Positions 3,052 through 51,900 of a DNA stretch of 58,390 nucleotides are shown in pieces (within the stretch, counting starts at the first letter, position 1; each line of letters opens with the position of its first letter). The translations under genes were made by a program, and so were the position numbers. Source of the DNA: Oscillibacter sp. (lineage in GTDB: Bacteria > Bacillota > Clostridia > Oscillospirales > Oscillospiraceae). The notes beneath the pieces were generated by a model. The model worked only from the letters and a program-made list of their open reading frames with translations, was not told where the DNA came from and ran no database searches. The stretch is from assembly GCA_014799845.1 (NCBI GenBank), contig JAAVHF010000016.1, positions 1-58,390 on the forward strand. The letters run 5' to 3'.

Positions 3052-3199
3052 TATACTATATTTTGCCGCGCTGGGCGCGGAAAACGGGAAATTCTTCCGC
3101 GGCCCTGCGGGCCGTCCCCGGCATCAATCTTGTTTTAGATTCGCCCTGCCGGGCCGTGAAGCGCCGCAAGGCGGCGCTTTTAGCGCTAAGACCGCCGCA

Positions 3200-3685
3200 G
3201 GCGGCCCCACGGGGGGCCTACTTTTCCCTTGCAGGAAAAGTAGCAAAAGTGCCCTCAAGGGGGCTTCGCCGCCCTTGAGAATCCCCTAATATGTCGTTTC
3301 GTTTTGCGCTTGTCCTGTAGTCTGTCCGGTCTGAATTAACCGGCTCCCGTGTATGAGGCGAAGCGCCGATCCAACGATGTTATCGGCGGACCCTACCGTA
3401 CCGCTTTGGGTACTCCCGGGGCAGTCGCGTCAGACGGTCCCCCTTGCAAGGCAGTCTCTCTTTAACAGGGCGGCAGCCGGAGTCCTTCAAGCGCCAGGCC
3501 ATCAGAAGGACAACCTCCAACTCAGGGGCACCCAATCCATCAAGTCACCGCCCAATGGTGACAAGCTCCCCCGTATAGGGAAGCGGCACGAACGTGCCGC
3601 CCCGTCACGATTGTGCACGGCCACTCGATGTGGCCGTTGCAGAATCAAGGGGCCGCGCAGGCCCCGGGCTATCGAATAGAACAAT
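3200..3685 (+). repeat. Dispersed intergenic hairpin element, copy A
   Basis: Non-coding copy of a family with five members in this window. Order: hairpin 1 (CTACTTTTCC...GGAAAAGTAG, 3218-3243), hairpin 2 (3252-3279), conserved core GTCCTGTAGTCTGTCCGG at 3312-3329, then about 270 bp that align with copy B almost to 3600 (shared TTTGGGTACTCCCGGGGCAG-like, AACAGGGCG and GGGAAGCGGCACGAACGTGCC-like segments). The distal hairpins differ from B. The track ORFs here (3048, 3353, 3502) have no family resemblance and are not called. The whole 2975-3799 gap is this element plus GC-rich hairpins on either side. Confidence 0.85.
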
Positions 3686-14582: not shown

Positions 14583-14708
14583 ATTGTTTTTCTCCTTCCG
14601 GGCAGGATTTTTCTTATTCTGTCCGGGGGGAAATTATTTATGCGGGGTATTGGTTTTTCCATAAAAAGCTGTTGACGCGTTCACAACAAAATCATATAAT
14701 TGCAAGAG

Positions 14709-15265
14709 ACGCAGCCCCGGGGCCTGCGCGGCCCCGGAACCCCGCGCCTACTTTTTGTGTGAACAAAAAGTAGGCAAAAAGTCACTTGAACCTACGGTTC
14801 AAGACTCCCTTGACGGGGCGGCACGTTCGTACCGCTTCCCTATACGAGGGTGTTCGCGGACATTGGGCGGAAACTTGCCGGATTGAGTGCCCCTGAATTA
14901 GAGGTTGTCCTTCTAGGGGCCTGGTGCTTGAAGAACTCCGGCTGACGCCCTGTTAAAGGGGTACTGCCATGCAAGGGGGACGTTCTACCGCGACTGCCCC
15001 GGGAGAACCCAAAGCAATGCGGTAGGGTCTGCCGTCTGCATCGTCAGACAGACGCTTCGCCCGATACACGGGACCCGGTCAATTTAGCCCGGACAGACTA
15101 CAGGACAAGCGCAAAACAAAACGGCCCATTCGGGGATTCTCAAGGGGCTATGGCCCCTTGAGGGCACTTTTGGTTCTTTTCCTGCAAGGGAAAAGAACGC
15201 CCCGTCGCGGCAGCGACAAATCCAAAACAAGAAACAAGGAGCGTTCGCGCCCGCAGGGCGCGAAA
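14709..15265 (-). repeat. Dispersed intergenic hairpin element, copy B (longest, reversed)
   Basis: Reads in the same order as copy A on the minus strand: GTTCTTTTCC...GGGAAAAGAAC hairpin (15173-15198), CTCAAGGGGC...GCCCCTTGAG hairpin (15140-15162), conserved core at 15089-15106, and about 270 bp aligned with copy A. It ends with CTTGAACCTACGGTTCAAG and GCCTACTTTTTG...CAAAAAGTAGGC (14746-14775). Its two ends are therefore similar hairpins in inverted orientation. It fills most of the 690-bp gap between divergent pdaA and moxR. The track ORFs at 15084 and 15148 are not convincing. Confidence 0.88.
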
Positions 15266-24645: not shown

Positions 24646-24716
24646 TGTATACCGAAAACCACTCGCTGGGCGAGTGGTTCAAAAGAAGCCTTGTGGCGAT
24701 AATGTAGACAGAAAAA

Positions 24717-24775
24717 CTCCCTTTGCTTAGAATAAGAGTGCGGTCTGCCAACTGCACAATAAAAGCAAAGGGAGG
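24717..24775 (+). promoter_or_regulatory. Ribosome-binding-site-sequestering hairpin in tnpA leader
   Basis: CTCCCTTTGCTT (24717-24728) is the exact reverse complement of AAGCAAAGGGAG (24763-24774), which contains the tnpA ribosome binding site. Folded mRNA would hide the site. IS200 of enteric bacteria uses the same strategy to keep transposase scarce. Confidence 0.8.
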
Positions 24776-24783
24776 TCATTACA

Positions 24784-25218
24784 ATGAATGACTTAAACAG
24801 TTTATCGCATACGAAGTGGAATTGCAAGTACCATATTGTATTTGCGCCGAAGTACCGGCGGAAAGTATTCTATGGAGAGAAACGGCGTGAAATTGGAGAA
24901 ATTCTGCGGACGCTGTGCAACTGGAAAAAGATCAAGATCATTGAGGCAGAAGTATGTCCGGACCATGTGCATATGTTGGTGGAAATTCCACCGAAAGTTG
25001 CGGTGTCGAGTTTTATGGGGTATCTGAAGGGGAAGAGCAGCCTGATGATCTACGAGAAGTACCCGGAACTGCGCTATAAGTATAGGAATCGGGAATTTTG
25101 GTGCCGTGGCTATTATGTGGATACAGCAGGAAAGAATGCAAAAAAGATTGAGGAATATATCCGGCACCAGTTGGATGAGGACAAGGCAGGAGAACAGTTG
25201 ACGATGGGGAATTTCTAA
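24784..25218 (+). CDS. tnpA: IS200-family Y1 transposase TnpA
   Basis: A complete 144-residue HUH-type transposase. The opening HTKWNCKYHIVFAPKYRRKVF, the HUH motif PDHVHMLV (His61, His63) and the C-terminal catalytic Tyr125 in KKIEEYIRHQ are all present, so it looks intact. It cuts and joins single-stranded DNA at hairpin ends during replication. Start at ATG 24784 behind GGGAGG, which is sequestered in a hairpin. It sits between guaB and the alpha-galactosidase gene, both apparently undamaged. Confidence 0.96.
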   Translation: MNDLNSLSHTKWNCKYHIVFAPKYRRKVFYGEKRREIGEILRTLCNWKKIKIIEAEVCPDHVHMLVEIPPKVAVSSFMGYLKGKSSLMIYEKYPELRYKYRNREFWCRGYYVDTAGKNAKKIEEYIRHQLDEDKAGEQLTMGNF

Positions 25219-33604: not shown

Positions 33605-33654
33605 TTGCGTTCCTTCCTTCTTCGCGCCTCCGGCGCGAGGGGAATTTTTCTTGA

Positions 33655-33965
33655 ATCAGCCCGGGGCTTACGCGGCCCCGGACCACGAGGACGTCATTCG
33701 CGCTGTGGGCGCGAACGACCGTCCTAGGTACTCGCCCTTCGGCCGAGCACCTACCTACTTTTTGTGCGAACAAAAAGTAGGCAAAAAATCGCTTAAACCT
33801 ACGGTTTAAGAATCCCTTATTATTACGGGGGAATTTGTTTTGCGCTCGTCCTGTAGTTTATACGGTCTAAACCGGACTTCTGGCGTAGTTTCTCCTGCTC
33901 TGCGTCTCTTTCAGGATGTTTCCGAGGGTCCCTACCGTCTTGCTTTGGGTTCTCCCGGCGCACCG
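33655..33965 (+). repeat. Dispersed intergenic hairpin element, copy C
   Basis: Contains the GC hairpin CCCGGGGC...GGCCCCGG, the GGACGTCATTC hairpin (33688-33725), hairpin 1 CCTACTTTTTG...CAAAAAGTAGG (33754-33781), hairpin 2 CTTAAACCTACGGTTTAAG, the core (33848-33865, slightly diverged) and the segment ending in GGGTTCTCCCGG, where homology with A and B stops. It is inserted between ilvD and the MBL gene. Confidence 0.85.
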
Positions 33966-34189
33966 CGTATATGTCAATGCTTCCACAAATTCAAAAATTT
34001 TGCGAACGGTTGCCCTCTCCCCGGCAACTTTTCCTTCTTTTCAAATTAAATCTGAGGGAAGACAAACCTCCGAGTTTTGAGGCACTAAAGCAAGTCGAAC
34101 CCCGATCCAGGTACCGGATCGCACGCCGGGCTACACAAAAGGCTGTGCAGATCGAACCTTGAAAACCGAATAGCCAATAGGATTTTTAC
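33966..34189. other. Unassigned AT-richer intergenic stretch
   Basis: About 220 bp downstream of copy C with no convincing ORF. It ends with GAACCTTGAAAACCGAATAG, which resembles sequence found in 16S-23S rRNA spacers of Firmicutes. No rRNA gene is adjacent, so it could be a relic or coincidence. Confidence 0.3.
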
Positions 34190-39187: not shown

Positions 39188-39229
39188 TCTCTACCGCTCC
39201 TTTCTTTCGTCAGTGGTTTCTTCCGTCAG

Positions 39230-39500
39230 CCCGGGGACTCCTCGCCCCCGGACCCCCCGCCTGCTTTTCCCCCACGGGAAAAGCAGGCAAAAGCGTGCCA
39301 GAACCAACGGTTCTGGACTCCCTCGGGCGTCGCGTGAAGCGCGACGCCTTACTACGGGGGCGTTTGTTTTTGCGCTCGTCCTGTAGTCTGTCCGGCCTAA
39401 ACCGGACTTCTGGAGTGGGGGCTTCTGCTCTGCGGCTGTTTCAGGATGTCGATTTGGTCCCTACCGTATGGCACGAGGGGAACTCCCGGGATTCTGGACA
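39230..39500 (+). repeat. Dispersed intergenic hairpin element, copy D
   Basis: Hairpin 1 GCCTGCTTTTCCC...GGGAAAAGCAGGC (39259-39288), hairpin 2 CCAGAACCAACGGTTCTGG, core GTCCTGTAGTCTGTCCGG (39378-39395) and CCTAAACCGGAC, ending near ACTCCCGGG. Stem sequences differ from the other copies on both sides at once, preserving pairing. It abuts the 3' end of the small ORF behind the ABC permease. Confidence 0.85.
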
Positions 39501-42504: not shown

Positions 42505-42575
42505 TACAAAAAAGGGAGGAACCTTACATCGGTGTAAGGTTCCTCCCTTCAGACTGTCGAAAAGCGGCCTGTCCG
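42505..42575 (-). repeat. Inverted hairpin repeat, left of the SLH gene
   Basis: AAGGGAGGAACCTTACA / TGTAAGGTTCCTCCCTT hairpin followed by a T run on the minus strand, plus about 25 bp of flanking sequence. It matches, in opposite orientation, a second copy at 44815-44888 on the other side of the SLH gene. It works as an outward-pointing terminator, insulating the ABC promoter. Confidence 0.85.
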
Positions 42576-44814: not shown

Positions 44815-44888
44815 CTCCATTCACGAAGCGGACTTCCGACAAGCTGAAGGGAGGAACCTTACATTGGTGTGAGGTTCCTCCCTTTTTT
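44815..44888 (+). repeat. Inverted hairpin repeat, right of the SLH gene
   Basis: AAGGGAGGAACCTTACATTGG...CCAATGT-type hairpin ending in CCTCCCTTTTTT on the plus strand. Its reverse complement aligns over about 60 bp with 42505-42575. It provides a second terminator for the SLH gene. Confidence 0.85.
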
Positions 44889-48589: not shown

Positions 48590-48870
48590 CAGACCGCCGC
48601 AACGAACCCCGGGAGATTCCGCGTGTATGACGGCAGGGTCTGCGCCAACATCCTGAAACAGACGCTTCGCAGCAGAAACCACACCCGCAGTTCGGTTTAG
48701 ACCGGACAGACTACAAGATAAGCGCAAAAAACAATATCCCCCGTAATGGAGCGTCACCCCTTGGGTGACGCCTTAAGGGATTCTTAAACCGTAGGTTTAA
48801 GTGACTTTTTGCCTACTTTTTGTTCACACAAAAAGTAGGCGCAGGGTTCGGGAGCGCGCAGCTCCCGGGC
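48590..48870 (-). repeat. Dispersed intergenic hairpin element, copy E
   Basis: Reads on the minus strand: GCCTACTTTTTG...CAAAAAGTAGGC hairpin (48811-48840), TTAAACCTACGGTTTAA hairpin (48783-48800), an extra GGCGTCACCC...GGGTGACGC hairpin, core (48702-48719) and GCGAAGCGTCTGTTTCAGGATG, ending near ATCTCCCGGGG. It lies between the DUF1284 gene and mfd. Confidence 0.85.
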
Positions 48871-48922
48871 TATCGATGAGAAACCATTTAGTGCGGTCTG
48901 AAAGACCGCAAAGGAGCACCCA

Positions 48923-51900
48923 ATGGAACGATTACTGCATTCCCTCCTGACGATACCAGAATCTGAGGCGCTGGCCTCCGCCGTGGAGAGCGGCGGGTGC
49001 CCCGCCGCCGTCACCGGCCTGGGGGCCGTCCACCGCGCCCAGATCGCCGCCGCCGTGTCCCGCCGGACAGGGCGGCCCTTAGTCATGCTCTGCGCCGACG
49101 AGACGGAGGCCGGCCGTCTGGCCGGCGACCTGGAAACCCTCCTGGGCGAGGCCGAAAAACCCGCCCGGGTTTTAAAGCTCTTCGCCAGGGAGCTTTTCGT
49201 CCGGGCGGGGACCGTCATCTCCCGCCAGTGGGAGCACAGCCGCATCGCCGCCCTCTACGAGCTGGCCAACAGCGAGAATATCGTGATAGTCGCCACCGCC
49301 GAGGCCCTGCTGCAAAAAACCAGCCCGCCCCAGCGGCTGCGGGAAGCCGCCATCACCCTGGAAAACGGGGGCCGCTGCGACCTGGAGGACCTGCCCCGCC
49401 GCCTGGTGGAGGCGGGCTACAGCCGCGCCGACCAGGTGGAGGGCGTGGGCCAGTTCGCCCTCCGGGGCGGCATCCTGGACGTGTTCTCCCCTCTCATGGA
49501 GGAGCCTGTCCGCTGCGAGTTCTTCGATGACGAGATCGATTCCCTGGGCTCCTTCGATATCCTCACCCAGCGGCGGACCAAAAATCTGGACTCCGCCCTG
49601 CTGCTGCCCGCCATGGAGCTGCTGCCGGGGGCGGAGAAAACCGCCGTCTTCGATTACTTCCCCGCCGACGCCCTGCTGTGCGTCAGCGAGACGGGCCGGG
49701 TGGGCGAGCGGGTGAAAAACGTCCTCTGGCAGGCCAGGGAGGACACCGAGTCCCTGCTGGCCGCCGGGGAAAAGGACGGAGACCTGACCGCCCTGCTGCT
49801 GGGCCAGAGCGAATGGCTGGAAAAGCTGGACGGCTTCGCCCTGTGCATGCTGGAGTCCCTGCCCACCTCCCGCTACCCCCTGCCCCCCAGGACGCTGCTG
49901 TCTATCAGCGCCAAGCAGCTGAGCGCCTATGGCGGCAGCATCGAGACCGCCGCCGCCGACCTGGAGCACTACCGGACGGCGGGCTATAAGGCCCTCCTGC
50001 TCTGCGGCAACGCCGCCCGGGCCAAAAGCCTCCAGCGGATGCTCTTTGACCGGGGCATCCCCGCGGCCCTGGATTTAAACTGCGGCGAGATGCCCGGTCC
50101 GGGGGAGATCCGTATCTCCGTGGGCGCCCTCTCAGCCGGGGCGGAGTATCCGCAAATCTCCCTGGCGGTGCTGACCGAGGGCCAGCTCACCGCCTCCACC
50201 GCCGGAAAGCAGCCCGCCCGCAAGGCGAAGAAAGACAACCGGCAGAAGATCCTCAGCTACGCCGACCTGTCCGTTGGCGACCTGGTGGTCCACTCCGCCC
50301 ACGGCGTGGGCCGGTTCGAGGGCATCCGGAAAATGCCCGTGGACGGCGTGGAGAAGGACTATATCAAGATCGTCTATGCCGGGGGGGACAGCCTCTACGT
50401 CCCCGCCACCGGACTGGACCAGGTCACCAAATATATCGGCGGCGGCGGACTGGGCTCCGACGGCGAGGTCCACGCCGCCAAGCTCAATAAATTGGGCGGC
50501 ACAGACTGGCACAAGCAGAAAACCAGGGCCAAGGCCGCCGCCAAGGACCTGGCCAAGGGCCTGATCGCCCTGTATGCCGAGCGGCAGCGCCGCCCCGGCT
50601 TCGCTTTCTCTCCCGATTCCCCCTGGCAGCTGGAATTCGAGGAGGCCTTCGACTACGTGGAGACCGAGGACCAGCTGCGGTGCATCGCGGACATCAAAAG
50701 GGATATGGAAAAGCCGATGCCCATGGATAGGCTCCTCTGCGGCGACGTGGGCTACGGCAAAACGGAGGTGGCCCTGCGGGCGGTGATGAAGTGCGTGCTG
50801 GACGGCAAGCAGGCCGCCATCCTGGCCCCTACCACCGTCCTGGCCCAGCAGCATTTCAACACAGCCTGCAACCGCTTCCGGTCCTTCCCGGTGGAGATCC
50901 GGGTGCTCAGCCGGTTCCAGACCCCGGGACAGTCCCGGCAGATCCTGGCCGACCTGCGCTCGGGAAAGATCGACCTGCTCATCGGCACCCACAAGCTGAT
51001 CCAGAAGGACGTTGCCGCCGCCTTCAAGGACCTGGGGCTGCTGGTGATAGACGAGGAACAGCGCTTCGGCGTTTCCCACAAGGAAAAGCTGAAGGAAATG
51101 AGCAAGCAGGTGGACGTGCTGACCCTCTCCGCCACGCCCATCCCCCGGACGCTGAACATGGCCCTCTCCGGCATCCGGGATATGTCCACCCTGGAGGAAC
51201 CCCCCCAGAACCGCCAGCCGGTACAGACCTACGTCATCGAGCACGACTGGGGCATCGTCGGCGACGCCATGCGCCGGGAAATTGACCGGGGCGGACAGGT
51301 GTACTACCTCCACAACCGGGTGGAATCCATCGACTCCACCGCCGCCCAGATCCGGCGGCTGGTGGGAGAGGACGTCCGGGTGGTGGTGGGCCACGGGAAG
51401 ATGGACGAGAAGCAGCTTTCCGCCGTCATGCAGCAGATGGTGGAGGGCGAGGCCCAGATCATGGTCTGCACCACCATCATCGAGACGGGCATCGACATCG
51501 CCAATGTGAACACCCTGATCATCGAGGACGCGGATAAAATGGGCCTGGCCCAGCTCCACCAGATCCGGGGCCGCATCGGACGCAGCGCCCGGAGGGCCTA
51601 CGCCTACATGACCTACCGCCCCGGCAAGGTGCTCTCGGAAATCGCCAACAAGCGCCTCACCGCCATCCGGGAGTACGTGGAGTTCGGCTCCGGCTTCAAG
51701 ATCGCCATGCGGGACCTGGAAATCCGGGGCGCGGGGAATCTTCTGGGACCGGAACAGTCCGGGTATATGATGACCGTGGGCTACGATATGTACCTCCAGC
51801 TGCTGGAGGACGCGGTGCTGGAGGAGAAGGGCGAGAAAAAGAAGCAGACCGTGGAGTGCTCCGCCGACCTGGCCGTCTCCGCCAACATCCCGGACCGCTA

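Follow-up and report, generated by a model that had tools for sequence, protein, structure and literature searches.

A dispersed intergenic repeat family of Oscillibacter with stem-loop ends and small-gene cargo, interpreted as putative non-autonomous mobile cassettes

The 58,390-nucleotide stretch of Oscillibacter DNA analysed here (hereafter the window) contains five related intergenic segments, and the question they raise is what kind of element they represent and how it came to be dispersed. An initial annotation had proposed a non-autonomous mobile element, a structured RNA, or both. Direct reading and a repeat search recover all five copies in the orientations given there. Copies A and B match at 84% over 336 nt, plus 88% over 58 nt, and copies C, D and E are mutually alike over 65–123 nt at 65–95% identity; the lengths and identities of these matches rule out chance as the source of the five copies. 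The order first described, i.e. two hairpins followed by a core and TCCCGGGG, is borne out, but the outer start had been placed too far in, and the true start lies further out, with two more stem-loops beyond.

Module mapping shows that each end is ~240 bp long and consists of four stem-loops and a core, in the order hairpin 0, TTTCTATTCGATAG, hairpin 1, hairpin 2, hairpin 3 and a core of ~125 bp. Hairpin 0 is GC-rich with a variable stem sequence, hairpin 1 is CCCGGGGCCTGCGCGGCCCCGG, hairpin 2 has the form TACTTTT-stem-AAAAGTA followed by AAAA, and the core includes GTCCTGTAGTCTGTCCGG and terminates in TCCCGGGG. The stem-loops keep their structure while varying in sequence, and there are two end subtypes, designated A and E. 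In a genome-wide count, hairpin 0 is present at 42 of the 53 E-type ends, compared with 14 of 191 control stretches. In the window it lies at 3100–3114 in copy A, 15244–15262 in copy B, 33623–33639 in copy C and 48895–48914 in copy E, and none is recognisable in copy D.

Copies A and B, mapped by direct reading and module mapping, are long forms without cargo. The extension of ~270 bp noticed in both is real and resolves into two parts, a ~187-bp tail and, beyond it, an inverted second copy of the end module. Copy A (3100–3682, plus strand) continues from hairpin 0 through an A-type stem-loop end (3206–3290), the core (3295–3420) and the tail (3421–3607) to the remnant of an inverted E-type end (3647–3682), and this second end is interrupted by a foreign palindromic repeat (3608–3646). 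Copy B (14708–15262, minus strand) has its hairpin 0, A-type end (15128–15203), core (14998–15123) and tail (14811–14997) followed by an inverted E-type end (14716–14811), and it lies upstream of a polysaccharide deacetylase gene. Other palindromic repeats are likewise nested inside elements, several times within hairpin 2, with instances in the window at 3608–3646 and 33685–33752 and at host loci C63, C98, C74 and C99. One of these repeats, ATTGTGCACGGCCACTCGATGTGGCCGTTGCAGAATC, frequently forms an inverted pair.

Copies C, D and E stop short, as first noted, each having a single end only. Copy C (33622–33965, plus strand; direct reading and module mapping) comprises hairpins 0 and 1 (33623–33683), the foreign palindromic insert at 33685–33752, hairpins 2 and 3 (33754–33818) and the core (33824–33958), and its hairpin-0 end immediately precedes the start codon of ilvD (33604). 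Copy D (39208–39491, plus strand; repeat search, direct reading and module mapping) comprises hairpin 1, hairpins 2 and 3 (39260–39324) and the core (39353–39491). Copy E (48607–48914, minus strand; direct reading and module mapping) has an E-type end (48775–48885) and a core (48607–48745), with its hairpin 0 immediately upstream of the ribosome-binding site of a gene starting at 48923. The segment adjoining copy C (33980–34185), which includes GGAGGTTTGTCTTCCCTCA on the minus strand and has no Rfam match, may be a second dispersed element or a leader; comparable stretches precede ilvD in the relatives G003 and G009 and the deacetylase gene in G019. Further features of the window are a T-box leader (RF00230; 38596–38847) preceding an acetolactate-synthase-like gene, a pair of 38-bp palindromic hairpins (AAGGGAGGAACCTTACA...) that are nearly identical and positioned 2.3 kb apart (42512–42549 and 44847–44884), and a 138-bp unit repeated five times in tandem (1–828), mostly inside the open reading frame at 108–1868.

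The host genome is a gut bacterium draft of 2.39 Mb in 104 contigs, 74% complete. Two DNA searches yield 66 merged loci and module mapping of fetched stretches yields 71 clusters, and because several contigs end inside copies these counts are a lower bound. Copies are abundant beyond the window, as the initial annotation had anticipated; its figure of perhaps a hundred or more per genome compares with 66–71 loci in this 74%-complete draft. Inverted end pairs are present at 33 loci by program count, and most intact loci are two-ended. Cargo-less pairs number 27 (383–628 bp), and 26 of these combine one A-type with one E-type end; each of the six paired elements longer than 700 bp, which are cargo-bearing, has two E-type ends (Fisher p about 6e-6 for the association between end type and cargo). 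About 20 copies, including the window's C, D and E, are apparently truly single-ended; for the remaining singles, either the copy sits at a contig edge or its second end is damaged or distant, as in copy A. Cargo-less versions and single ends make up the majority of the ~70 copies.

Elements above 0.7 kb (the long ones are 0.8–1.3 kb) enclose small genes. Usually these are a divergent pair, one encoding an HTH regulator of the Cro/C1 type and the other a DUF6809 protein, often with a dyad in between that would serve as operator. Pfam profiles identify HTH_3, HTH_26 or HTH_19 together with an above-cut-off DUF6809 (PF20648) in C74, C76, C98 and C37, although at C37 only the right end is near the pair and the left end was not found nearby. 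Variants include C14, with an HTH gene and a small protein that resembles DUF6809 only at E 0.07, C50, with an HTH gene and a small protein without a Pfam assignment, and C73, with an HTH gene alone. The same build is seen in Oscillibacter-like relatives: G002, G004 and G006 have both ends, and at least one end could be recognised in each of G003, G009, G019 and G023. In G006, one orthologous element additionally encloses a methyltransferase-like gene (family judged by eye). Skipping-rope RNAs (RF02924) lie beside fchA in two stretches, L180 (1737–1831) and L261 (3404–3498), the latter within the element itself, where the methyltransferase-like gene and the HTH gene flank it. Inverted repeats between the HTH and DUF6809 genes average 7.4 bp per arm for the best repeat, compared with 5.0 in shuffles, and the longest arms, in the best cases, reach 15–18 bp, as would be expected of an autoregulated operator in those elements. 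Within the order, the DUF6809 proteins that are most typical are located outside these elements. We found no paper on DUF6809, no match to a known defence or phage protein, and no PDB match for its helical structural model (pLDDT 88).

Three orthologous sites differ between species in whether the element is present. At the fhs/fchA junction it is present in G000, G003, G004, G006, G009, G019 and G023 and absent in G001 and G016, and at the other two sites, which precede ilvD and the polysaccharide deacetylase gene, it is found in some species and missing in others, the deacetylase intergenic DNA measuring 148–411 bp in element-free species compared with 694 bp in the window. We infer insertion of the element from this pattern. 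End subtypes differ between species at the same orthologous site, which indicates that ends are exchanged by recombination between copies, and such recombination could mimic some mobility; the G019 deacetylase site keeps an apparent left-end remnant, so loss also occurs. No target-site duplication is visible in the flanks in cross-species comparisons. The inverted ends, the cargo-bearing versions and the presence or absence at orthologous sites together support the mobile-element part of the initial proposal, and our favoured reading, to which we assign a probability of roughly 0.62, is that the family consists of non-autonomous mobile cassettes.

The stems could instead be part of a regulatory RNA with a defined structure, or of a signal for transcript processing (a 3' or 5' UTR element, a terminator or an RNase III site), kept beside genes, and many copies do adjoin ribosome-binding sites or stop codons. 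The stems also covary: in hairpins 1–3 of 47 host ends 99.2% of cells are paired versus 90.1% in shuffles that ignore the relatedness of copies, and there are 13 extra Watson–Crick pair types versus 5.8 in shuffles. The tips of hairpin 2 derive from a small set of sequences, so the stems may reflect copying of sequence from locus to locus in addition to compensatory change. However, there is no consensus fold of the core, which for this reason looks conserved as sequence, orthologous genes manage without the element, and since ends occur in mirror image both strands would need an RNA function. No Rfam family matches at the gathering threshold; the best chance match, Xoo1, scores 22 bits against a cut-off of 70, and a weak match to SorX was likewise rejected. 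We thus consider a purely structured RNA improbable, and the mobile cassette the better of the two readings.

If the elements are mobile cassettes, what moves them? No transposase, reverse transcriptase or integrase was found between the ends examined, no IS or transposase with matching ends was recovered from the incomplete host genome in DNA searches with the end sequences, and about 20 stretches of G004 have no transposase between paired ends as judged by open reading frame lengths and HTH/DUF6809 profiles only. The full-length relatives with a transposase or reverse transcriptase that had been predicted did not appear; the longer relatives carry the HTH regulator and DUF6809 instead. An IS200 gene in the window (24784–25218), together with the palindromes and high copy number, would suit a REP/REPIN-type repeat whose mobility comes from a Y1 transposase of the RAYT or IS200 type. 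REPs are units of 20–40 bp with a GTAG tag and an associated Y1 transposase (PMC3733652, PMC3116915), and the elements resemble them in their dispersed palindromic units and inverted pairing. In contrast to REPs, no GTAG or CGTC tag lies beside a 20–40 bp palindrome, and the hairpin-2 tetranucleotide varies (GTAG, GTAC, GTAA) and is inside the stem. Moreover, Y1 transposases (PF01797) are found in 5 of 25 genus genomes and in none of the copy-rich relatives G004, G006, G009, G021 and G023, which rules out RAYT/IS200 as a general driver and leaves a REP/REPIN origin highly improbable. The IS200-like gene of the window is preceded by an STnc490-family RNA (RF01405, just above cut-off; 24657–25218 with the gene) that is probably an RNA belonging to IS200.

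The failure to find an enzyme would also fit dead remains, i.e. ends of a lost autonomous element whose old copies have been inherited vertically and reshuffled as the repeats recombined with one another. Host-genome copies are 74–91% identical, and with at most ~91% likeness there has been no recent burst; the fhs/fchA insertion is common to seven species with differing end subtypes. Against this explanation, stems remain paired despite sequence change, and copy number varies widely within one genus, 17 of 25 genomes having matches and counts ranging from none detected to 49. A 97%-complete relative has 153 hairpin-2 motifs versus 0 for the reversed pattern, of which ~25 stem from a separate repeat. 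G004 (L295, L296 and L298) has a separate short repeat, ATACTTTTTCTTGAAAGAAAAAGTATCAAAAAGAAC...GAATAGTAT, with ~25 matches and no inverted partner. Order-wide, 90 of 394 genomes contain the hairpin-2 motif, as do 62 of 168 sampled genera, with a maximum of 147 in one genome; the reversed pattern gives mostly 0 and never above 4, and single low counts are at chance level. In one genome of another family, ten copies of a related single-ended element, which has a comparable series of stem-loops, share an identical hairpin 2. This also speaks against dead remains, and the carriers of the motif as a whole are possibly related. Similarity searches found no copies on plasmids or phages, and there are no exact motifs on viral contigs including IMG/VR. 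We regard dead remains as unlikely, though less so than a regulatory RNA.

How do putative mobile cassettes of this kind compare with known systems? Integron gene cassettes are small and arrayed, with structure-conserved recombination sites; the elements are similarly small and have structure-conserved ends, but are dispersed rather than arrayed, have two inverted ends each, and have no integrase seen alongside. The ends of mobile insertion cassettes are those of a known IS, unlike the ~240-bp ends described here, whose four stem-loops and core match no IS found. In such cassettes, e.g. MIC231 of Bacillus cereus (cited in PMC6542083, also PMC5444012), cargo genes lie between inverted ends with no transposase of their own and mobility relies on an enzyme supplied in trans; passengers between inverted ends without a transposase are likewise found in the host genome and its relatives, and their mobility would depend on such an enzyme. 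The cargo-less copies fit bacterial MITEs such as Correia/NEMIS, RUP and ERIC (reviews PMC2229807, PMC10969869) in being short, multicopy, intergenic, without a transposase and with stable stem-loops, and the 27 cargo-less pairs have terminal inverted repeats. They differ from MITEs in their much longer, compound ends, GC-rich hairpins and gene-carrying versions, no TA termini or target duplication are seen, and their ends are common to no autonomous IS found in the incomplete host genome. The best reading is that the element behaves as a mobile insertion cassette would, with MITEs derived from it; we do not claim membership in either group, because neither a helper IS nor a target duplication was found.

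A full cassette consists of an end (hairpin 0, hairpins 1–3 and core), the gene pair, a core or tail and an inverted end, with the HTH repressor and DUF6809 genes transcribed away from a shared control region. A recombinase or transposase acting in trans would recognise the stem-loops of the ends, perhaps when the DNA is extruded or single-stranded, and insert the element beside genes. The HTH protein would repress its own promoter and might keep the gene pair maintained, whether selfishly or usefully. The single-ended copies are counter-evidence to a two-ended transposon in its simple form. A bolder and doubtful extension is that these are a new class of mobile gene cassette, with ends read by shape (stem-loops, probably as single-stranded or extruded DNA) and not by sequence, that disperses HTH/DUF6809 pairs under their own regulation and gives off empty copies. 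If this were true, single-ended hairpin-2 relatives would reach across Oscillospirales (the 62 of 168 sampled genera with the motif, some at chance level).

Literature searches on repeats in Oscillibacter yielded no relevant description, and as far as we found this repeat group, common in gut Oscillospirales, has no earlier description. It now gains an anatomy, a cargo and a defined question, namely which enzyme moves ends that conserve fold over sequence, and DUF6809 gains a recurring partner and setting. Because the repeats break draft assemblies, they also matter for genome reconstruction.
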